From the IMG/VR virus record IMGVR_UViG_3300043446_001923, positions 1 through 39,766 of that record: a DNA stretch of 39,766 nt. The stretch is one strand, 5' to 3'. Below are positions 1 through 39,766 of the stretch, in pieces; the stretch's first letter is position 1; every line of letters begins with the position of its first letter. Position numbers and translations under genes: made by a program. The notes under the pieces were generated by a model. It saw nothing but the letters and a program-made list of their open reading frames with translations. It did not search any database and was not told the origin of the DNA. Source of the DNA: a virus.

Positions 1-127
1 TCAGATACAGCAAGCTGATCGTCGCTGTACTTCACAACCAAACGGTTCTGAAAGTAGAAACCAAAGTCCCCGCACGGCACAGAAATCGTGATCCCTGTGT
101 AAGTGCTACCAGACGCTGGAGGCAGGT
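1..127. repeat. Terminal direct repeat, copy 1 (assembly overlap)
   Basis: The first 127 bases recur exactly as the last 127 (39640-39766). The length equals a common assembler k-mer, and the repeat lies in the middle of an open reading frame that continues across the join. Both facts favour a circular assembly over a true terminal repeat. The unique genome is therefore 39,639 bp. Confidence 0.97.
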
Positions 128-2321: not shown

Positions 2322-4043
2322 TTAGAAGTAGGTCGTGATGATTGCAGCTCCGGGTCCGCCAAGTCCGCCAGCTCCAGAGTTTCCAACATTGTCAAGAGAA
2401 GCAGATCCACCGCCTCCACCGCCTCCGGGGAATCCTCCGTTTCCTCCAACTCCTCCGTTTGTGGTCGTGGAAGATCCTCCGCTTCCTCCACCGCCAGCAC
2501 CAACAGGAGTTCCGTTAGTCGGAAGAGATACCATGGATGTTCCGTTACCACCGTTACCACCGTTGTTTGCTCCAGCCGTGCCGCCCGCAAGGTTGAGCAT
2601 ATTGAAGCGGCCACCAGCAACTCCAGCGGCAGTTCCGTCTGCGGCGGTTATGCCAGACCCAGAAGCACCTGCTCCAGAAGCAATCGTTGCCGATGATCCA
2701 GTCCCAGAAGGAATACCAGAAACGCCCTGACCTCCTGTAGTAGAAGCAGCACTTCCGGTGTTTCCGTTTACAGATCCACCTCCACCAAACCCGGTTGTTG
2801 CAGATCCAGCTGATCCTCCGTTTCCTCCAAGAAGCGTCAACCAACTGCCAAACGACGTTGTGCCGCCTTGTCCACCGTTGCTCCCATTGGTGCTGTTTGT
2901 CGTTTGAGAAGCTCCACTTGCTCCTGTTCCACCAATCAGAACGGATTCAGTTGATCCAAGAACAGAAGCGTCAAGAGTAGCCTCCCAATATCCGCCAGAT
3001 CCGCCTCCACCACCTCCGCATCGAACTGTTCCTGCTGCACCTTTGCGGCCTGATCCGCCCCCTCCTCCGCCAGACCACAACTGAACTTTCACCGCCCGTG
3101 CTCCAGCAGGCTTCGTCCACGTTCCGCTCGAAGAAAACGTCTGCACGTCCATGACTGGCTTCAGGTAATCCGTTCCAGCCACCGCAATACTGGGAATACC
3201 AGTCACAGCCGTGTTCTTGAGCAACCCAGTCTGAAGCGAAGCAAGCACCTGACCGTTCAAAGCCTTGACACCGGGACTTGGATAGGTGCCGCTAAGATCT
3301 CCACCAGCCGCGCCAGTCGGAGTACGCACGTCGCTCAAGCGGGGATCATTCCCTTCGCAGGCCGTGCTGCTTGAGCTTCCGTAAGTGACAGCAATCGTGC
3401 CGCTGTCCGTGATCGTGCCACCACTCAACCCAGTTCCCGCAGTGATGCTCGTGACAGTTCCAGCCACCAGCGTCGTCTGACTTGCGCTCGTGATGCGACC
3501 AAACTGGTCAACCGTGATGACCGGGATCTGACTCGTGGACCCAAACGAACCAGCAGCAACACCAGAGGTTGCCAAAGCAATCGTTCCAGACGCCGCGATA
3601 GTGCCACCTGTGAGCCCCGTGCCAGCCGTGATGCTCGTCACCGTACCAGCACCAAGGTTGGCTAACGCCTGCACCGCTGTGCTCGCTCCTGTGCCGCCCT
3701 TGCTGACGGGCATGATGCCAGCAATGTCGGTTGTGCTGATAGCGATTGTTTGCGCTGTTGCTCCAGTCACCCTGCCGTACTGATCCACCGAGATCGACGG
3801 GATCTGAGCAGAAGAGCCATACGTCCCCGCAGCGATGCCAGAGGTTTGCAAAGCGATAGTACCGCTTGCGATGATCGTGCCTCCGGTCAAGCCAGCGCCA
3901 GCCGTCACAGACGTGACTGTGCCAGCGTTCCTGACCAGCGACCGAGGTGCAGTCTTGGTGATGCCGCCTTGATTCAGCACGATGCTGTCTGAGTCTGAGA
4001 CAGCTACTGCTACTGGTAGTTCTGAAATCTTTACGTCAGACAT
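2322..4043 (-). CDS. Glycine-rich tail fibre 2
   Basis: 573 residues. The N-terminus (DVKISELPVA..SDSIVLNQGG) is the short anchor-like segment found on many phage fibres and shared with the neighbouring 836-aa fibre. Residues about 35-260 hold three copies of a TVTSVTAGAGLTGGTI/QIPxISVDQxGRV repeat typical of trimeric fibre shafts. A FSSSGTWTKPAGARAVKVQL strand then opens a glycine-dominated C-terminal domain of about 220 residues (runs of Gly with Ser/Thr/Asn) ending in AAIITTYF. Such Gly-rich domains, like T-even gp38-type adhesins, form polyglycine-II-like lattices with receptor-binding loops. The gene is followed at once by the 62-aa protein. Receptor binding is inferred. Confidence 0.88.
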   Translation of the reverse strand: MSDVKISELPVAVAVSDSDSIVLNQGGITKTAPRSLVRNAGTVTSVTAGAGLTGGTIIASGTIALQTSGIAAGTYGSSAQIPSISVDQYGRVTGATAQTIAISTTDIAGIMPVSKGGTGASTAVQALANLGAGTVTSITAGTGLTGGTIAASGTIALATSGVAAGSFGSTSQIPVITVDQFGRITSASQTTLVAGTVTSITAGTGLSGGTITDSGTIAVTYGSSSSTACEGNDPRLSDVRTPTGAAGGDLSGTYPSPGVKALNGQVLASLQTGLLKNTAVTGIPSIAVAGTDYLKPVMDVQTFSSSGTWTKPAGARAVKVQLWSGGGGGGSGRKGAAGTVRCGGGGGGSGGYWEATLDASVLGSTESVLIGGTGASGASQTTNSTNGSNGGQGGTTSFGSWLTLLGGNGGSAGSATTGFGGGGSVNGNTGSAASTTGGQGVSGIPSGTGSSATIASGAGASGSGITAADGTAAGVAGGRFNMLNLAGGTAGANNGGNGGNGTSMVSLPTNGTPVGAGGGGSGGSSTTTNGGVGGNGGFPGGGGGGGSASLDNVGNSGAGGLGGPGAAIITTYF

Positions 4044-18176: not shown

Positions 18177-18695
18177 TTAGTCTCTGCGGAAAAACTTCCC
18201 TTGGTGCTCGCAATAGTCAAAGCGAAGCATGCTATTCCAAACCGCCTGCCAGTCTACGCAATTGGTGAGCCAGCTGGGGACGTTTGAAAGATCAAAACAC
18301 TCTCCCACAAGCTGCTCCGCAAACTCCGCCTCTGAGTCTGCCTCTCCCGAATAGGCGTCTTGAGCGTGTTCTAGTGTAGTGTGTTCCATCGAACATCCGA
18401 CCGCTTCCGCATACGCCTCCCACAACTCCCGCTCCTCCTCTGAACAGTCAAGCCAATCCCACAAGGTATCAGAGAGGCCAGACTCCCCGTAAAAATCACG
18501 GGGGAATCCTTCAAAGTCTTGGAGCATGATTTCGGGATCGTGCTCGTCTTTGTGGAGCTTAAGGCATGCCTTCAGGAATGTCGCTCTAACATGCGCTTCC
18601 AATTCGACCCAAGCTCCTCGGAGGGAACCGTTTGCGTATTTGCCATACGTCCCAACGTAGACGCGGGGAGCGGTTGTTTGTGTGTGTGTGCTCAT
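18177..18695 (-). CDS. ardA: Antirestriction protein ArdA
   Basis: 172 residues, close to the usual 165-170 of ArdA. The N-terminus RVYVGTYGKYANGSLRGAWVE, the segment HKDEHDPEIMLQDFEGFP at about 50-67, and the very acidic middle (SEEERELWEAYAEA) are hallmarks of the family. ArdA is a dimeric DNA mimic that fills the DNA-binding groove of type I restriction-modification enzymes and blocks cutting of incoming DNA. It sits first in an early small-gene cluster, 14 bases after the 69-aa gene. The repeated CACACA around its start (18683-18705) is a local simple repeat. Together with the methyltransferase and two Lar-like proteins it gives this phage several anti-restriction tools. Confidence 0.93.
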   Translation of the reverse strand: MSTHTQTTAPRVYVGTYGKYANGSLRGAWVELEAHVRATFLKACLKLHKDEHDPEIMLQDFEGFPRDFYGESGLSDTLWDWLDCSEEERELWEAYAEAVGCSMEHTTLEHAQDAYSGEADSEAEFAEQLVGECFDLSNVPSWLTNCVDWQAVWNSMLRFDYCEHQGKFFRRD

Positions 18696-21658: not shown

Positions 21659-22246
21659 TTATTGGATAAATGAGGCCGTTCTACCGCTGAACCGAAGGGT
21701 GGTCTCAACCCCACACGGTCCATTTCTCTGCCATGGAATCCCGATGATTCGAGACTCTGAACCTTCCTCCGCAGGAAGGCGAATAGCAAGCACACAAGTT
21801 GCGTCCTGCTGAATACTTCTACTTTCACGAGCCTTGCCTTGTTCGTTGAGCTGAGTAATGGCGATGACCAAACAATTCAGCTCTATTGACAGCAGACGCA
21901 GGGCTCGGCTCACTTCTGCCACCTCACGTTCACGGGTGCCTTCACGGCCAACGTCGCAGCGTACAAGCTGGATGTAGTCCACGAACATCACTCCAAGTCC
22001 GTGCTCGGTCTTTGCCATGGCCCGAGCGGTGGCCACTATCGAAGCGATGTCATGCAGGTCGTCACGAATCACAAGGTGGTTCTGTGAGATTGTCTGCATG
22101 GCCCGCTGAATCCCAAGCATGTGCGCTTGGGACTTGACTCCATCAGCCAGCGACCTCAACGGGACATCGCCCATTTTGGCTACTAGACGATCAACAATCT
22201 GTTCCGCAGGCATCTCCAGCGAAACGATCAGGATGCCTCGTTTCAT
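21659..22246 (-). CDS. dnaB: Replicative helicase DnaB, C-terminal half (split gene)
   Basis: 195 residues that start inside the RecA core of a DnaB helicase. SLEMPAEQ (motif H1a) is at 9-16, Walker B VMFVDYIQLV at 86-95, and motifs H3/H4 (ITQLNEQGKARESRSIQQDA) at 130-149. There is no N-terminal domain and no Walker A; those are on a separate gene 1.75 kb upstream (24751-23993). Adding the two halves gives about 430 residues, a normal DnaB length, with nothing missing at the junction. The start overlaps the stop of the 81-aa gene by 4 bp, so it is coupled and likely translated. A working helicase would need the halves to associate. Confidence 0.88.
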   Translation of the reverse strand: MKRGILIVSLEMPAEQIVDRLVAKMGDVPLRSLADGVKSQAHMLGIQRAMQTISQNHLVIRDDLHDIASIVATARAMAKTEHGLGVMFVDYIQLVRCDVGREGTREREVAEVSRALRLLSIELNCLVIAITQLNEQGKARESRSIQQDATCVLAIRLPAEEGSESRIIGIPWQRNGPCGVETTLRFSGRTASFIQ

Positions 22247-22488
22247 CGCGATCCGTTTCCGGGTCTGTGGCTAGTGCTGTCCTTCTGGCCGACAAACCTT
22301 GTTGCCCAGAGTACAACCTCAATGTCCTCAGTGCTCTGATTCTCCGGCAGCAAAGCCAGTTCATCGCGCATGATCTCGCACTCAATCTCATGGCCGATGT
22401 GCATGACTTTGTAGACGATCTTGGGACGAGGCAGCTTAAGCGAATCGTTGATGACCCGGCTCATTCGCATAACACAATGCCTAGACAT
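22243..22488 (-). CDS. Small protein inside the split helicase region, unknown
   Basis: 81 residues. The first 15 residues are basic (MSRHCVMRMSRVINDSLKLP); then come KIVYKVMHIGHEIECEIMRD and STEDIEVVLWATRFVGQ, an alternating strand pattern, and a polar tail. The start overlaps the nuclease gene by 8 bases and the stop overlaps the C-terminal helicase gene. It could help the split helicase assemble, but nothing shows this. Confidence 0.55.
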   Translation of the reverse strand: MSRHCVMRMSRVINDSLKLPRPKIVYKVMHIGHEIECEIMRDELALLPENQSTEDIEVVLWATRFVGQKDSTSHRPGNGSR

Positions 22489-23263
22489 AACGAGGCATGA
22501 TGATGCGTGTTTCTGGCAACCCCGGCCATGTGTCCAGCTCCTTGCAGAGCTTGTAATTCATAAGATCCTCGTCGATTGCATTCGCCGCGCCGATCAGGAC
22601 TTCGGTGCTCGGGAAGACGTACTGAGCAAGGTGCGGGGGCTCCATGTCCACAGCCAGAAAGATGAAGCTGGGAGTTAACCCAAACACCTGCTGTGCTCCA
22701 AAGCGATACCACTCCGCCTGTACGTCATAACGCAGGTCGAAGAACGAACGATCAAAGTTGCTGATTCGCGTGACTGTCTTGAGGTCAATTATGACGTTCT
22801 CGTCGTTGAACTCGCCCATCAAATCCAGTCGTCCACGGCACTGCACGCCATCACGCTCCCAGTACAGCGACACCTCGCAATCATCCGAAGCGTACTGGAT
22901 CTTCTCCAACAGCCGACGAGCTGAATCAGCGGCTCCAGTGATCTGAGCGTTCTCCTCTTCGGTCACGATGAGAAGCCCCACGTTTTGCTCGCAGAAGTCC
23001 TGCCAAGTGGCCTTTCCTTCCTTCGTGCGCCTGTCGCAGGCTGGAGCTACGGCAAAGGTCTGCTTGTTCTCCAGAACAAGGTCGTGAACCACCGTGCCAA
23101 GTTCCATAGCACGGGAGGGCTTGAATTCTTTGGTCTCACGATACTTCATGTAGGCTGGAGCCGTGTGGAAGTGGTCTAGCGTGTGTTTACTCAGCCCCTC
23201 TGAGGCTTGATATTCTGCCATCGATAGACCGCGAACGGCCTTAGTCACGAACTTTGTAGTCAT
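22481..23263 (-). CDS. PD-(D/E)XK exonuclease, exonuclease VIII-like
   Basis: 260 residues. LSKHTLDHFHTAPAYMKYR at about 24-42, AMELGTVVHDLVLE at 52-65, GRLDLMGEF (Asp147), VIIDLKT (Asp160-x-Lys162) and YDVQAEWYRFG (Gln182, Tyr186) follow the putative exonuclease-8/PDDEXK family (the RecE-like and Cas4-like nuclease group) in order. These enzymes resect double-stranded DNA ends for recombination. The phage SSB and RuvC-like resolvase would complete a recombination set, though no annealing protein was found. The ATG overlaps the end of the kinase gene by 23 bases. It lies between the two helicase halves. Confidence 0.85.
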   Translation of the reverse strand: MTTKFVTKAVRGLSMAEYQASEGLSKHTLDHFHTAPAYMKYRETKEFKPSRAMELGTVVHDLVLENKQTFAVAPACDRRTKEGKATWQDFCEQNVGLLIVTEEENAQITGAADSARRLLEKIQYASDDCEVSLYWERDGVQCRGRLDLMGEFNDENVIIDLKTVTRISNFDRSFFDLRYDVQAEWYRFGAQQVFGLTPSFIFLAVDMEPPHLAQYVFPSTEVLIGAANAIDEDLMNYKLCKELDTWPGLPETRIIMPRYV

Positions 23264-23735
23264 TTAGGATTATCTTTGCGATTTGGTTATGTAGTTCTAG
23301 GATGGTCCCGTTGTTCTCAACGGTGAAGTCAACTCCACTGAGAGCTGCCTGACCCGCCTCCGATTCGTGCGTTCCGGCCTTGAGTCCATTCCGCACAATT
23401 CGTATGACGAGACCTTTGCGTTCATTCTTGATGAAGTCAACCTCGTTTTGAAAACGAACGTCAGTCCACACAGCCCGAGGCACTTGCAACATGCGTGAAC
23501 GAGCACGGTCCACCCAAAAGTTGATCTTGTAAGCTCGGCCAGCAGAGCCCAGCTCCTGCAACAGGCGACGACCTTTGGCGTCCTTGTCTTGGTTCCATGT
23601 GAACTCGCGTTGAGCGATTTCCTTGATGGGATCGGCAAACGCCATTGGTTTCCATCCAAACTCGATGAGCAGTTCTGCCGCAGCGTTTTTGCCAGCGCCC
23701 GCCAGCCCGGTGAATGCGATGTCTTTAAGAAACAT
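23241..23735 (-). CDS. Deoxynucleoside monophosphate kinase
   Basis: 164 residues. The P-loop is GLAGAGKN at 10-17, preceded by a hydrophobic strand. WKPMAFADPIKEIAQREF is the LID/NMP-binding pattern, and VWTDVRFQNEVDFIK at about 93-107 is the usual TDVRFxNE motif of T4 gp1-type dNMP kinases. The enzyme phosphorylates dNMPs from host DNA breakdown into dNDPs for phage replication. It lies within the region that separates the helicase halves, together with the 108-aa protein. The same 11 bases (TCATTTAGGAT) mark both edges of this two-gene unit. Confidence 0.85.
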   Translation of the reverse strand: MFLKDIAFTGLAGAGKNAAAELLIEFGWKPMAFADPIKEIAQREFTWNQDKDAKGRRLLQELGSAGRAYKINFWVDRARSRMLQVPRAVWTDVRFQNEVDFIKNERKGLVIRIVRNGLKAGTHESEAGQAALSGVDFTVENNGTILELHNQIAKIILNDYKVRD

Positions 23736-24051
23736 AGGTGTCGTTTACTTCAAATGCGTTGCAACCCACAATCCAGCCAGCTTTGTCACGAACGAGTTTG
23801 CTTGGCGACATGAGATCAGGGCGATCTGGCAGAGCCAAACGAACCACACTCGGGACGATGAACATGGTGTCTTTGCGGGGTTTCTCTGGGATGTTGGTGA
23901 CTGACTGCACTTGAGCCACCAGCAGCGGTGTTCCCTCAATTTCGCCGACCTTCTCGTAGTGATAGGTGGCCTGAGAGATGTATCCAGAAGGCTCAATCGT
24001 AGAGCCGTTCGGAAGAATAACTGGATTCTTCGTGAGATTGATTACTTTCAT
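23725..24051 (-). CDS. Conserved phage protein of unknown function
   Basis: 108 residues, mostly beta. The pattern KVINLTKNPVILPNGSTIEP, a GTPLLVAQVQSVTNIPEKPR middle and the ending KLVRDKAGWIVGCNAFEV match a small phage family with INLTPHxI...PPSGxxARV...LPxPxxGTxYIVSxLVA...RxDLxxP...VRDxxGxIIGC. I know this family from Bacteroides and other phages; its function is unknown. The start (24051) is embedded in the 3' end of the N-terminal helicase gene (59-base overlap). The IVPSVV segment fits the conserved YIVS strand. Confidence 0.75.
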   Translation of the reverse strand: MKVINLTKNPVILPNGSTIEPSGYISQATYHYEKVGEIEGTPLLVAQVQSVTNIPEKPRKDTMFIVPSVVRLALPDRPDLMSPSKLVRDKAGWIVGCNAFEVNDTYVS

Positions 24052-24751
24052 TTAGGATGTTGGCGATGATGTTGAGGGCCAGCATGGTTTTGCCGGACTT
24101 GGTTTCTCCTCCGATGACAAGGAAATCTCCGAATCGAATGGGTGTCAAGTTGTCGAGCTTGGAATAACCAGTGCGGACTCGCATGGCTGTGTCGTCCCCT
24201 GTCTCGTACCGTTGCAGTGCATTCATTAGGATGGCGTTGGTGTCCTGCACTCGTGCTGGAGCCATCTCCCGGTGCAGGGCATCAATCGCCATGTACGTTT
24301 GCGACAGCAACTCTCCGGTGTCTTGGCTGATGTCCTGAATATCGTGCTGAAGCTGTGCTGCAATCGCCAGTAGCGCCCGCCGTTTGGCGTGTCTGCGAAC
24401 AATCGTCAGCATGTCTGGCAATGCCGACAGAACAGCGCCATTGGTGCATACATCAGACACTTGATAAAACTCAGCACTCGGCATTCGTTCACGCACCTTC
24501 TCAAACAAGACCCTGATGTCGCAGGACGCACCCTTGGCAACCTGATTGGTGATTGACTCCACAACCGCTTTGGAGAATGGGTCCAGAATGTCAGCAGTGC
24601 TGAAGCGTGACTCGGTTGTTTTGGCGACAAACTCGTTTGGATAGTTTGCCGCGATACACGCCAAGCCAACCTCGGCCTCGGTAGCCTTTGGAACAAGATC
24701 CAGAGGCACTTCAACCCGTGACTTACCACCCTTCCGATACTTGGTTTCCAT
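23993..24751 (-). CDS. dnaB: Replicative helicase DnaB, N-terminal half with Walker A (split gene)
   Basis: 252 residues. Residues about 22-165 form the DnaB N-terminal helical domain and linker. TGYSKLDNLTPIRFGDF (194-210) and Walker A GGETKSGKT (214-222) open the RecA domain. Homology stops after ALNIIANIL (225-233). The last 19 residues are a Ser/Glu-rich tail unlike DnaB and the frame then ends. The rest of the RecA domain is a second gene at 22246-21659. The break falls between the P-loop helix and the next core strand. No intein residues are seen at either edge. It follows the 178-aa replication protein with a 29-base overlap. Confidence 0.88.
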   Translation of the reverse strand: METKYRKGGKSRVEVPLDLVPKATEAEVGLACIAANYPNEFVAKTTESRFSTADILDPFSKAVVESITNQVAKGASCDIRVLFEKVRERMPSAEFYQVSDVCTNGAVLSALPDMLTIVRRHAKRRALLAIAAQLQHDIQDISQDTGELLSQTYMAIDALHREMAPARVQDTNAILMNALQRYETGDDTAMRVRTGYSKLDNLTPIRFGDFLVIGGETKSGKTMLALNIIANILNESNQSHEESSYSSERLYD

Positions 24752-25259
24752 CAGTAGTTAATGTCGTCTGTGCCCTTGCACGGATTGGTGTCTTTGCTAC
24801 GCCTGCATTCCGGCAGAGACGAGCGTTCAGGAATCGACCCATTCCCCGTTGCGTCTTGAGTTCCCGAGGATTGTCAATCAGAAAAGAGCGTGCCTTGAGG
24901 AACTCGGTGCGAACATGCGTCTCTCCAAACGCAAGCAGGAAATCACGAACAAGCGTTGGTGGAGCGACATAGAAGCCTCCGTTCTCGCAAGGGAACTGGA
25001 AGTTGTTGATGTCATCAGGCCGTTCCGGTTGCTCGGGTTGCGGCTCTAGCTCTGGCTCAAATTGCTTCACCGGCTCTGGCTCTTGCGGCGCTGGATCCTG
25101 TTCTTGGGGCTTGGCTGCCTCAGGAATGGGGATCTGCTCCAGCTTGAGTGTGGATACAGCGACAGGCGCACAAGGCGTCGTTATTGAGGTTGTTCCGTCT
25201 GTCGGGATCTCAAGCTGTACGGTGGTACCATTTTGTGCAGTTACGGTTATCTTGATCAT
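24723..25259 (-). CDS. Replication protein with acidic Pro/Glu/Gln linker, possible helicase loader
   Basis: 178 residues. The N-terminus is a short beta module (KITVTAQNGTTVQLEIP). About 45-80 is a Pro/Glu/Gln low-complexity linker. The C-terminal 80 residues (VAPPTLVRDFLLAFGETHVR, FLKARSFLIDNPRELKTQRG, GRFLNARLCR) contain the LxxNPxxxKTxRGxxRFLNxxLxR pattern. Many phage replication initiators/helicase loaders and some DnaT-like proteins end with this pattern. It comes immediately before the N-terminal helicase gene and overlaps it, as expected for a loader. The unusual part is the beta module and acidic linker in place of a winged-helix domain. Confidence 0.65.
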   Translation of the reverse strand: MIKITVTAQNGTTVQLEIPTDGTTSITTPCAPVAVSTLKLEQIPIPEAAKPQEQDPAPQEPEPVKQFEPELEPQPEQPERPDDINNFQFPCENGGFYVAPPTLVRDFLLAFGETHVRTEFLKARSFLIDNPRELKTQRGMGRFLNARLCRNAGVAKTPIRARAQTTLTTDGNQVSEGW

Positions 25260-25468: not shown

Positions 25469-25677
25469 TTCGCTACCTCCTGCATCTTTTCAACAGGCTT
25501 CGCTTTCGGATTAGCCTGCACTGCTCGTTTATTCCAAAGGCGGATTGCTGATTTTTGATTAAAACTTTCTGGCCCTCTGGCAATGCACTGAAAACAAACC
25601 ACAGCGTTTTTAAGTTCCCAAAACATTACATGCGAGTTGTCTTCGCCGCAAAACGGGCATGGTTGTAGTTTGCTCAT
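25465..25677 (-). CDS. Lar-like restriction alleviation zinc protein
   Basis: 70 residues. QPCPFCGEDNSHV, VVCFQCIARGPES and AIRLWNKRA make the CPFCG...C..C..GP....A...WN pattern of the Lar (restriction alleviation) family. In Rac prophage Lar relieves type I restriction and enhances modification. Four cysteines bind one zinc. Overlaps of 4 bp with both neighbours put it directly behind the cytosine methyltransferase. Many phage Lar-like proteins have not been tested, so the activity here is by family. Confidence 0.8.
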   Translation of the reverse strand: MSKLQPCPFCGEDNSHVMFWELKNAVVCFQCIARGPESFNQKSAIRLWNKRAVQANPKAKPVEKMQEVAK

Positions 25678-26693
25678 TCCGCCTCCTTAAGTTCTTTCAT
25701 AAGTGTTCTAAATGCTCGTTCTGCCGTTGCCGGAACTACTCCGTTTCCCAGCAAGCGCAGTTCGTCGGTTCGATTATCGCACAACTCGGCATAGTCCAAC
25801 CCACCGGCAGGCCCATCAGCGTTTCTACCCAGCGTGGATTGAGTTTGCCGCTCTGCGTCCGCTCCACCATCGGCGTGAGCTCGCTGTACTCCCGCTCCTC
25901 GTTCCCGCGTCCACTCTTGTGATCCCGCGCCGTAGGCGTTGCCCAACTCGCCTGTGTCCCAAGGTGCAGCATCGATCCCGGCTTGCAGTTCGTTGGCCCC
26001 GGATTGCGCGAGTCTGCGCTTCGGGGCGTCACCCACGACTCTAGGCGGCTCCCATGCGTGCTGTGGTTCTCTAGGGCGGCTGGGCCAGAGATTTCCATCG
26101 ATGCAATTCTCCGCAGGATTCTCCCGCCTTTGTCCAGCTTTGCAAGAAGGCTCCAATTTGTCCCTTGATCCTGCGTTTCTGAAGCAGTCGGAGTGGGCCA
26201 AGATGAACACTCGCTTTCGCTGATGAGGCGCTCTGACTTCAGCCGCGCTGAATATGCCCCACGTCGTTCTGTAACCCATTCGTCCCAAGTCGTGCATGAC
26301 GTCACGCAACCCAAGGGTAATGTGTCCTTCGACGTTCTCGAAGAAACAGAGTCTTGGTTGCAAAACTGAAATTCCGTTTGCGATGTAAGGCCAGAGGTGG
26401 CGCTCATCGTCGGCTCCAAGACGTTTTCCAGCGGCGCTAAATGGTTGGCATGGGTAGCCGCCAGAGAGGATGTCCACCAAGCCTCGAAAAGACCCCCAAG
26501 GAAAGGATTTGAGATCAGTCCAGATCGGAGCCGGGTCAAGGTGCCCGCTTTCCATTCTCGCAAGTAACAACTCGCACGCGAACGCTTCGATCTCCGAATA
26601 AGCGACAGTTCGCAAGCTCGGGATGCATCGGCGGAGTCCAAGGTCAATGCCTCCGTATCCGCTGCAAAGGCTAATGTGCGTGGGATTATCCAC
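25674..26693 (-). CDS. C5 cytosine DNA methyltransferase
   Basis: 339 residues. Motif I is SLCSGYGGIDLG (8-19), motif IV GGYPCQPFSAAG with catalytic Cys82 (78-89), motif VI FENVEGH (118-124), motif VIII QRKRVFILAHS (158-168) and motif X LLGNGVVPATAERAF (314-328). It transfers a methyl group to C5 of cytosine. With no cognate nuclease it probably shields phage DNA from host restriction. The region between 165 and 300 contains repeated (A/G)(D/N)A elements and is the target-recognition part. That same DNA is open in a second frame that shows its own conserved pattern (see findings). It overlaps both neighbours by 4-8 bases. Confidence 0.92.
   Translation of the reverse strand: MDNPTHISLCSGYGGIDLGLRRCIPSLRTVAYSEIEAFACELLLARMESGHLDPAPIWTDLKSFPWGSFRGLVDILSGGYPCQPFSAAGKRLGADDERHLWPYIANGISVLQPRLCFFENVEGHITLGLRDVMHDLGRMGYRTTWGIFSAAEVRAPHQRKRVFILAHSDCFRNAGSRDKLEPSCKAGQRRENPAENCIDGNLWPSRPREPQHAWEPPRVVGDAPKRRLAQSGANELQAGIDAAPWDTGELGNAYGAGSQEWTRERGAGVQRAHADGGADAERQTQSTLGRNADGPAGGLDYAELCDNRTDELRLLGNGVVPATAERAFRTLMKELKEAE
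25736..26206 (-). other. Second open frame inside the methyltransferase gene (WPTPTA-type)
   Basis: In the alternate frame, three Trp/Thr/Pro units occur: WPTPTASE (from 26200), WVTPRSAD and WATPTARDHKSG. They are followed by GKLNPRWVETLMGLPVGWT and a Cys-containing tail that stops at 25736. This is the pattern of a recurrent phage protein family (W-x-TP-x-A-x-D repeats plus LNPRWVExLMGxPxGWT). The first in-frame Met within the conserved part is at 26098. Upstream of 26206 the frame is merely the shifted methyltransferase. Whether it is translated, by internal start or frameshift, is unknown. Confidence 0.4.
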
Positions 26694-27132
26694 ATTGGTC
26701 CTCCTTCAACGCCTCAACGGCAATCGCCTGCTCAAGTTTCCCTCTGCAAAATCCACAGCAATTCCCTTTTGCGATTTCAGACAAAGCCGACTCAAGCCGC
26801 TTGATGCGCTTGTTGGCCCACCACATCGCCCCGCAGGCAACGTGCATCGAATGCCGGATGTCGTCCGCCTGATGATCGGGCAGGCGCTCCTTCCACCACT
26901 CGCGGTCTTTGGCGAGCATGTGCAGATCTTGCCACGCCTCACCCAAAGACAGGTGCAGATCCAATCGGTTCCATAAATCTACAGCCTGCTCTTCCGTGTC
27001 CACCTCAGGTCCACGAGCCCAGCACCTATTGCATTTGATGCTGTGCATTCCGCTGACCCATGTACAGATGTTTAGATCTGTGCATTCACAGAATGGACAA
27101 CTTGCAATCCACCACTTGTTGACTTCGCTCAT
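26686..27132 (-). CDS. Lar-like zinc protein with helical extension
   Basis: 148 residues from ATG 27132, which overlaps the preceding stop (ATGA). An N-terminal zinc module (CPFCECTDLNICTWVSG, IKCNRCWARGPEVDTEEQAV, LWNRLD) has the Lar pattern CPFC...C..C..GP....A...WN. A long helical part follows (MLAKDREWWKERLPDHQADD, RIKRLESALSEIAKG) with a second CCGFC near the end. Compared with the 70-aa Lar-like protein at 25677 it is twice as long. It may alleviate type I restriction or regulate the methyltransferase that follows. The helical extension is unassigned. Confidence 0.72.
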   Translation of the reverse strand: MSEVNKWWIASCPFCECTDLNICTWVSGMHSIKCNRCWARGPEVDTEEQAVDLWNRLDLHLSLGEAWQDLHMLAKDREWWKERLPDHQADDIRHSMHVACGAMWWANKRIKRLESALSEIAKGNCCGFCRGKLEQAIAVEALKEDQCG

Positions 27133-27482
27133 TCCGCCGCCTCCTTCCATTTCCCAATCGCCTTCAAAAACGATTCAGCCCGTTGGCGAGCAGTTGCGCT
27201 GTAAGCCCGTCTTGATACCGTTCCTTTGAACCCATAATACACAGAATCGTACAAGATTTCAGCGTACTGTTTCCACTGCCAATCGGAGAGCGACTGCTCC
27301 GCCTCGTGCATGGCGTTGAGGTCGTTGCAGTAGTCGGGCAAATATCCGCAAACGTTCCATTTAGCTCCCGGAGGTTTCGGAGGCCATCCCCGCAGTTTAT
27401 GATTGTGCGATACTCCGCTATTATTCAATGGAGTCCACCCGCACGCCTCGGCGATGGCGTGGTTGATTTGCTGGTCTGTCAT
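27129..27482 (-). CDS. Phage ABA-sandwich domain protein
   Basis: 117 residues from ATG 27482 (ATGA overlap). INHAIAEACGWTPLN, then YLPDYCNDLNAMHEAEQSL and a C-terminal RQRAESFLKAIGKW follow the phage ABA-sandwich family (PF18066-type), in which the PDYxxDLNAMHEAE block is highly conserved. These small proteins are frequent in phage early regions, where no activity has been established. It overlaps the 129-aa gene upstream and the Lar-like gene downstream. Confidence 0.82.
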   Translation of the reverse strand: MTDQQINHAIAEACGWTPLNNSGVSHNHKLRGWPPKPPGAKWNVCGYLPDYCNDLNAMHEAEQSLSDWQWKQYAEILYDSVYYGFKGTVSRRAYSATARQRAESFLKAIGKWKEAAE

Positions 27483-38573: not shown

Positions 38574-39766
38574 CTATTCCTGTGACTCCATGTTTCTGTT
38601 GCTCACAATGGCATAAAGACTACTGCCTTTCAACTGTGGTCTTCCCTTTAAGAAAACTGTCTCAAATTCCATTGTTGCTCCCCTAAGACCAATCCTAGGC
38701 CGAAGCGTGCTGTCGTGAGTTGTTGACCCGCCAAACTCGTATGTCAAAACCGTCTCTTCAGCATCAGGATCGTGCGTCCTGACAATCAAGCTGATGATGT
38801 CTCCGGGCGTGTTGTTGAACTGGAACTCTCCACGGCTAAGACGCTTGGCTTGGATGTTGTCAAAGGTGTACTCACGGCTCTTCAGACGGGCATCGATCGG
38901 AACAGTTTGGCTTTCGTCCTCAATCACCGCAGGAATCACAAACGGAAGCGTTGGCCTTCCGTTGATGGTCTTGAACTCATCTCCTCCATCAATGTCTTCG
39001 GTCAGGAAAATGCCACCGTAGTTGGCTGATCCAGAAAACCTTGTCATCAAGAACAAGCGCCTTTTACCACCATACTGACACACTTGCCAGTCGTCCTGAT
39101 ACATAATATCAGTTCCAACTATTGGATAAATATCAATAGACTCCCAGTTCTTGTTAAGAGTGTTGTATACAAGCGTTTTTGTGTTTCTTGTTGCTGTTCC
39201 AGTTGGAAGAGAGATATAGAACCGATTGTCATAATAAACCGCGTTTGCTTTAGATACAGCAGCGAAGTTTACATCATCGAAGAAGTCGTCGATTGGCTCA
39301 GATAGCGGCAGTGTTTCGCCAATGACTTTGAGATCCAACTGAGGAGTCAGCATGTGAACCCCCTTGCCGGACATAAAGAACACGAACTGTCCCGCTGCCA
39401 CGATGGACTTCCTTGCTACGCAACCCACCTGAGTGGTCACAACGCTAACGAACGATCCAGCTCCCGGAGGCGCACCGGGATCAAAGCTGTCGGTCTGCAC
39501 GTAAGCGATGTAGATCGATCTGGACATGAACACCAAGAACTGGTTCTCGATCCATGGCAACACACCAACAATCGAATCGTTGCCTCCTTGGTTGATCTTG
39601 AAGTTGTTCAGAGTCAGATCAAATGTCCCTTCAAGGATGTCAGATACAGCAAGCTGATCGTCGCTGTACTTCACAACCAAACGGTTCTGAAAGTAGAAAC
39701 CAAAGTCCCCGCACGGCACAGAAATCGTGATCCCTGTGTAAGTGCTACCAGACGCTGGAGGCAGGT
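38574..39766 (-). CDS. Tail/stabilisation protein, C-terminal part (gene crosses the circle join)
   Basis: This is the 3' part of the 640-residue tail protein that begins at 857 on the other side of the join. A GTG at 39719 looks like a start if the window is treated as linear, but it is an internal valine. This portion is about 380 residues of alternating short hydrophobic strands (for example VGVLPWIENQFLVFMS and QFVFFMSGKGVHML), typical of a propeller-like tail hub or nozzle protein. It ends one base before the start of the fibre gene at 38572. No transmembrane segment or catalytic motif is seen. A structural role in the short tail is likely. Confidence 0.8.
   Translation of the reverse strand, partial: LPPASGSTYTGITISVPCGDFGFYFQNRLVVKYSDDQLAVSDILEGTFDLTLNNFKINQGGNDSIVGVLPWIENQFLVFMSRSIYIAYVQTDSFDPGAPPGAGSFVSVVTTQVGCVARKSIVAAGQFVFFMSGKGVHMLTPQLDLKVIGETLPLSEPIDDFFDDVNFAAVSKANAVYYDNRFYISLPTGTATRNTKTLVYNTLNKNWESIDIYPIVGTDIMYQDDWQVCQYGGKRRLFLMTRFSGSANYGGIFLTEDIDGGDEFKTINGRPTLPFVIPAVIEDESQTVPIDARLKSREYTFDNIQAKRLSRGEFQFNNTPGDIISLIVRTHDPDAEETVLTYEFGGSTTHDSTLRPRIGLRGATMEFETVFLKGRPQLKGSSLYAIVSNRNMESQE
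39640..39766. repeat. Terminal direct repeat, copy 2 (assembly overlap)
   Basis: Exact second copy of bases 1-127. Joining the two copies restores one uninterrupted tail protein gene, so one copy should be dropped when the genome is circularised. Confidence 0.97.

Follow-up and report, generated by a model that had tools for sequence, protein, structure and literature searches.

A DnaB-type replicative helicase gene broken between Walker A and Walker B across a clade of aquatic phages

The IMG/VR virus record IMGVR_UViG_3300043446_001923 (positions 1 to 39,766, all of which is referred to here as the window) is a phage genome in which dnaB, the gene for the replicative helicase, is broken into two separate open reading frames (ORFs), as an earlier note made from the letters of the DNA had proposed. 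By its core motifs and N-terminal domain the gene pair is a DnaB-type (SF4) replicative helicase. Judged from the sequences, its products very probably form a two-subunit DnaB, in which the N protein puts the P-loop strand and helix into the RecA core of the C protein. Across the related contigs recovered in our searches, the split is fixed in an entire, large and diverse clade of aquatic phages known only from metagenomes.

The two ORFs lie 1.75 kb apart (Table 1), and the break point lies past Walker A, just ahead of the core strand that comes next. Positions 2-49 of the Pfam DnaB_C profile matched residues 192-238 of the N half and positions 50-253 matched residues 4-193 of the C half. PHROG_19 was likewise shared out, with 189-379 on the N half and 381-566 on the C half, and these complementary ranges confirmed the proposed pair of ORFs. 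All parts of the RecA core (Walker A, H1a, Walker B, H3, H4, and the arginine finger) were found, distributed over the two genes. The composite ATP site was invariant, with KSGKT in the N half and the Glu (SLEM), Asp (VDY), Gln (TQL), and Arg finger in the C half. The N-terminal helical domain was confirmed as that of DnaB by Foldseek matches to DnaB N-terminal domains and full chains, and by a profile match to 2r6a.

Counted over both halves, the spacing from GKT to SLEM was typically 13 + 8 = 21 residues, equal to that of an ordinary DnaB. The claim that the halves add up to a normal DnaB length with nothing missing thus holds at the break; it does not hold further on, where the C half is approximately 11 residues shorter than bacterial DnaB after the H3 glutamine (after ITQLN, at about position 21850 of the window). 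DnaB homology had also been said to be lost nine residues after the P-loop, but at the family level it extends 13-16 residues. The intact relatives described below have this shortened H3 loop as well. A beta-hairpin lysine beside the arginine finger is usual for bacterial DnaB, though not strictly defining. In the split clade this lysine (hairpin IPWQRNG) is replaced by F, I, W, or Y; it is also replaced in the intact relatives L175-L182 and is retained in L166-L174. Since both the short H3 loop and the lysine replacement occur in intact relatives, neither was caused by the split, and the loss in the loop predates it.

When the C half was used as query of viral contigs, 80 related contigs were retrieved at 64-75% identity. 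The N half was a separate gene on the same strand in all of those reaching far enough upstream (73/73), with the break at one and the same site. The N half alone as query gave no matches in viral contigs or in the phage collection, whereas an alignment of N halves did, and the added loci brought the set to 130 locus records, some of which share a contig, with 72 different C sequences and 85 different N sequences. In nearly all 130 records the N half ended 11-16 residues past SGKT (23-37 in a few), and its stop codon varied between loci. The C half opened with an ATG, usually 8 residues ahead of SLEM, and this start was at the same codon in 136 of 137 loci, the remaining one (L005) having it one codon upstream. 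Two DnaB matches and no more (about 2-48 and 46-255) were counted per genome in the closed window, in G029 and G030, and in 21 records of near-full length. Among 24 near-full-length genomes of the split clade, none carried just one half.

The window begins and ends with an exact repeat (Table 1), and a terminal overlap of 127 bases was also found in two further split records, G010 and G012. A profile search of the whole 39,766-nt record returned no DnaB match beyond the two halves. Because the record is a closed genome, the statement that there is no other replicative helicase is valid for the whole phage.

Both halves are under strong purifying selection. The median ratio of nonsynonymous to synonymous substitution (dN/dS) was 0.053 for the N half, 0.041 for the C half, and 0.030 for the orphaned P-loop segment. 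This segment was the most conserved part of the N protein, with a mean identity of 89% vs. 69% in the rest of N. Given such constraint, together with the invariant ATP-site residues, the P-loop is hard to explain unless it still works with the C half.

A fixed-gap DNA pattern from the P-loop helix to SLEMP, with a gap that matches the spacing of intact genes, identified four contigs with a one-piece gene, and further searches gave the intact relatives L166-L182. Each of the ten intact records checked contained a single DnaB match over the core. The nearest intact relative, L175, encodes one ORF with identities of 51% (C half) and 29% (N half); its dnaB starts near the contig edge, and the upstream gene order is not visible. 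Only relatives further removed, with a C-half identity of 51% or below, had intact genes. In maximum-likelihood trees constructed for each half, the split sequences formed one clade (95/99 in the N tree and 95/90 in the C tree) nested among the intact ones, and L175 was the sister of the split clade in the C tree (94/87). As a single nested clade was obtained in both trees, the sequences indicate that the split is old and arose once.

The order of the flanking genes was compared between intact and split loci. In L166-L174 the gene directly upstream of intact dnaB, which runs right up to it and matches p178 over the C-terminal part, sits at the place of a replication initiator. An exonuclease gene lies upstream of intact dnaB in L176 and L179-L182, and terminase genes follow it in L176 and L178. 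In the split clade the N half is still found after p178 and the C half still before the terminase genes, with the exonuclease block in between. Among GenBank phages, a full-length relative (31%) of the probable large terminase of the window occurs only in phage C75C1 (OQ984151.1), where a single intact DnaB gene likewise lies downstream of an exonuclease. Either the exonuclease block moved into dnaB, by insertion or translocation, or complementary losses came after a tandem duplication.

Pfam and PHROG matches upheld the four genes described between the halves, namely a 108-aa protein (p108), a deoxynucleoside monophosphate (dNMP) kinase, a PD-(D/E)XK exonuclease, and an 81-aa protein (p81). 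Gene order was constant across loci: N - p108 - (dNMP kinase) - exonuclease - p81 - (C5 methylase) - C, where genes in brackets are optional, and the gap between the halves ranged from 1324 to 3786 nt. No homing endonuclease was found in the break; the cargo consisted of replication and metabolism genes. In L150 a ThyX thymidylate synthase gene (2965-3630) lies inside the dnaB break. The L150 contig was binned in a Pedosphaera metagenome-assembled genome, a weak hint of a Verrucomicrobia host. The N end usually shares a few bases with the p108 gene, and the C start is often overlapped by p81 or by the methylase; this arrangement suggests translational coupling. We also considered p108 and p81 as remnants of dnaB, and this was rejected (profile comparison probabilities of 2% or less).

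Table 1. Positions of the dnaB halves and associated features in the window.
Feature	Positions	Strand	Description
N half of DnaB	23993..24751	(-)	252 aa; N-terminal helical domain, linker, beta1, Walker A and next helix; from profiles, AlphaFold2, and Foldseek
Walker A GETKSGKT	24086..24109	(-)	Within N half; KSGKT invariant across the family
C half of DnaB	21659..22246	(-)	195 aa, own ATG; H1a Glu, Walker B Asp, H3 Gln, H4, arginine finger
p108	23725..24051	(-)	108 aa; overlaps end of N half; always between the halves
dNMP kinase (PF21448, phrog_139)	23241..23735	(-)	Optional cargo; often absent or elsewhere
RecE/exonuclease VIII-like PD-(D/E)XK nuclease (DUF3799, phrog_412)	22481..23263	(-)	Always between the halves
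p81	22243..22488	(-)	81 aa; overlaps start codon of C half (ATGA); always between the halves
p178	24723..25259	(-)	Probable shortened replication initiator
Exact terminal repeat, 127 bp	1..127 with 39640-39766		Closed (circular) assembly

We propose that a single rearrangement broke the ancestral dnaB of the lineage in the surface loop that follows the Walker A helix and placed a replication and recombination block (p108, the RecE-like exonuclease, and p81) inside it. The halves are now separate genes, the first with a stop codon and the second with a start codon of its own. They would be translated from one gene cluster, and the two polypeptides would associate non-covalently. With its last part (beta1, P-loop, and alpha-A) the N protein would dock into the RecA-type sheet of the C protein, yielding one DnaB subunit with one ATP site, and six such N-C pairs would build the helicase ring. 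We infer this docking, the hexamer, and the activity of the assembly.

When the N half was predicted alone by AlphaFold2, the N-terminal domain was confident, while the P-loop segment had a predicted local distance difference test (pLDDT) score of about 55 and beta1 was absent. The C half alone was predicted as a RecA-like core without the beta1 strand, and both predicted halves matched DnaB in the Protein Data Bank by Foldseek. These separate model folds are as expected if each half needs the other. Some points weigh against a two-subunit DnaB. The alignments behind each fold were shallow, so that the low P-loop confidence is weak evidence; the N-C distance correlation (0.88) is barely over the value for N and its neighbour p108 (0.87); and host DnaB could serve part of phage replication. 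A further proposal, which we consider unlikely, is that the split is used as control: a ring or pool of C protein would be unable to bind ATP until N supplied the P-loop, and activity would be licensed by the supply of N, giving a 12-chain helicase under two-component control.

The halves might instead act apart, each with a separate role, e.g., as loader or regulator of host DnaB. A host DnaB is available, and a DNA polymerase was likewise not recognised among the larger genes of the window. Separate roles are nevertheless improbable in our judgement, given that ATP-site residues are invariant on both sides of the break, that a P-loop segment useless alone is what N conserves most, and that near-full-length genomes of the clade never keep one half only. 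It could also be argued that what was seen at first sight was a single metagenome contig, and thus a misassembly or a decaying pseudogene. We give this next to no weight, with so many distinct C and N sequences from many metagenomes and dN/dS at 0.04-0.05. An intact gene at this site had been named as the sign of a misassembly; when this was tested, intact genes were found just in distant relatives and the split was clade-wide.

Other explanations would join the halves, and the earlier note had offered trans-splicing of RNA and a spanning intron alongside the two-subunit assembly that our data support. The coding ends are complementary and near each other in one gene cluster, which speaks for splicing, be it in cis across the block or in trans by way of a split group I or II intron. 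Between the halves, however, the cargo differs in both genes and length. Nucleotide information was 1.0-1.8 bits within the coding ends vs. 0.1-0.4 bits just outside both break points, so that neither break point is flanked by conserved splice-site or intron ends. No group I/II intron was found with Rfam, either at the gathering threshold or, within the gap, with E values of up to 5. The stop of N is variable (tails of 11-37 residues past SGKT), and C keeps its ATG throughout but for the one-codon shift in L005. Taken together, these data make RNA splicing very improbable. Dassa et al. in 2009 (as cited in PMC10343443) reportedly described fractured helicase genes (gp41 type) with split inteins, which would permit protein trans-splicing. 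Like the split DnaB, these are phage replicative helicase genes fractured in metagenomic sequences, but they carry split inteins, whereas the split DnaB has no intein and no joining chemistry available to it. No intein halves were found at the break in the split loci, in agreement with the earlier note: N mostly terminates shortly after SGKT without an intein, and C begins with its Met 8 residues before SLEM. Joining by inteins is accordingly a reading that we assign almost no probability.

Enzymes of T4-type phages known from genes in pieces include NrdA of Aeh1, topoisomerase gp39/gp60 of T4, and the 43A/43B DNA polymerase of Aeromonas phages, and the halves of Aeh1 NrdA and 43A/43B have been shown to reassemble as separate polypeptides that are functional (PMC2988022). 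As in these systems, an essential phage replication enzyme is broken into two genes; there are relatives with an intact single gene, and both pieces are retained under selection. What lies in their breaks is either a homing endonuclease or an intercistronic sequence of short length, whereas the break of the split DnaB contains changing replication and metabolism genes. The enzyme also differs, and here the break lies inside a P-loop ATPase core and is fixed across a diverse clade. The OM43 phages MEP401/402 have a split DNA polymerase (PMC10580990), which resembles the split DnaB in being an aquatic-phage replication enzyme in two ORFs with an unrelated ORF between them, but it is a polymerase with one small ORF in two isolates. 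In Paenibacillus phage Unity (L153, 6784-9945) we observed a DNA polymerase annotated as two genes, an exonuclease domain and a family A polymerase, with a small ORF between them, possibly another replication enzyme in pieces. No intein-free natural two-gene DnaB was found in the open-access literature searched. In SMC/Rad50 one ATPase is assembled from a Walker A lobe and a Walker B lobe that belong to different segments; those lobes are linked by a coiled coil in one chain and have an ABC fold, whereas the split DnaB has two chains and a RecA fold.

The split DnaB constitutes a natural experiment on a hexameric motor, its P-loop ATPase core having been cut between Walker A and Walker B, and from the sequences the cut core evidently still works. 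It provides ready-made split points for engineered helicases, with an intact sister for comparison, and a test case for whether the splitting of an essential enzyme is neutral or regulatory.

Elsewhere in the window, 18177-18695 matched an anti-restriction protein, and 26686-27150 (-), beside the methylase, gave a weak Lar-type restriction alleviation match under the curated cut-off. Nearly the whole C5 DNA methyltransferase ORF is overprinted by a 319-aa ORF in another frame of the same strand (25674-26693 and 25736-26695, both (-)). The protein of the overprinting ORF is conserved (36-57% identity) and matches phrog_1008. Both frames were open at an equal offset in 33 distinct loci, most for 200-430 codons, while alternative frames of the exonuclease gene were open for a median of 61 codons.
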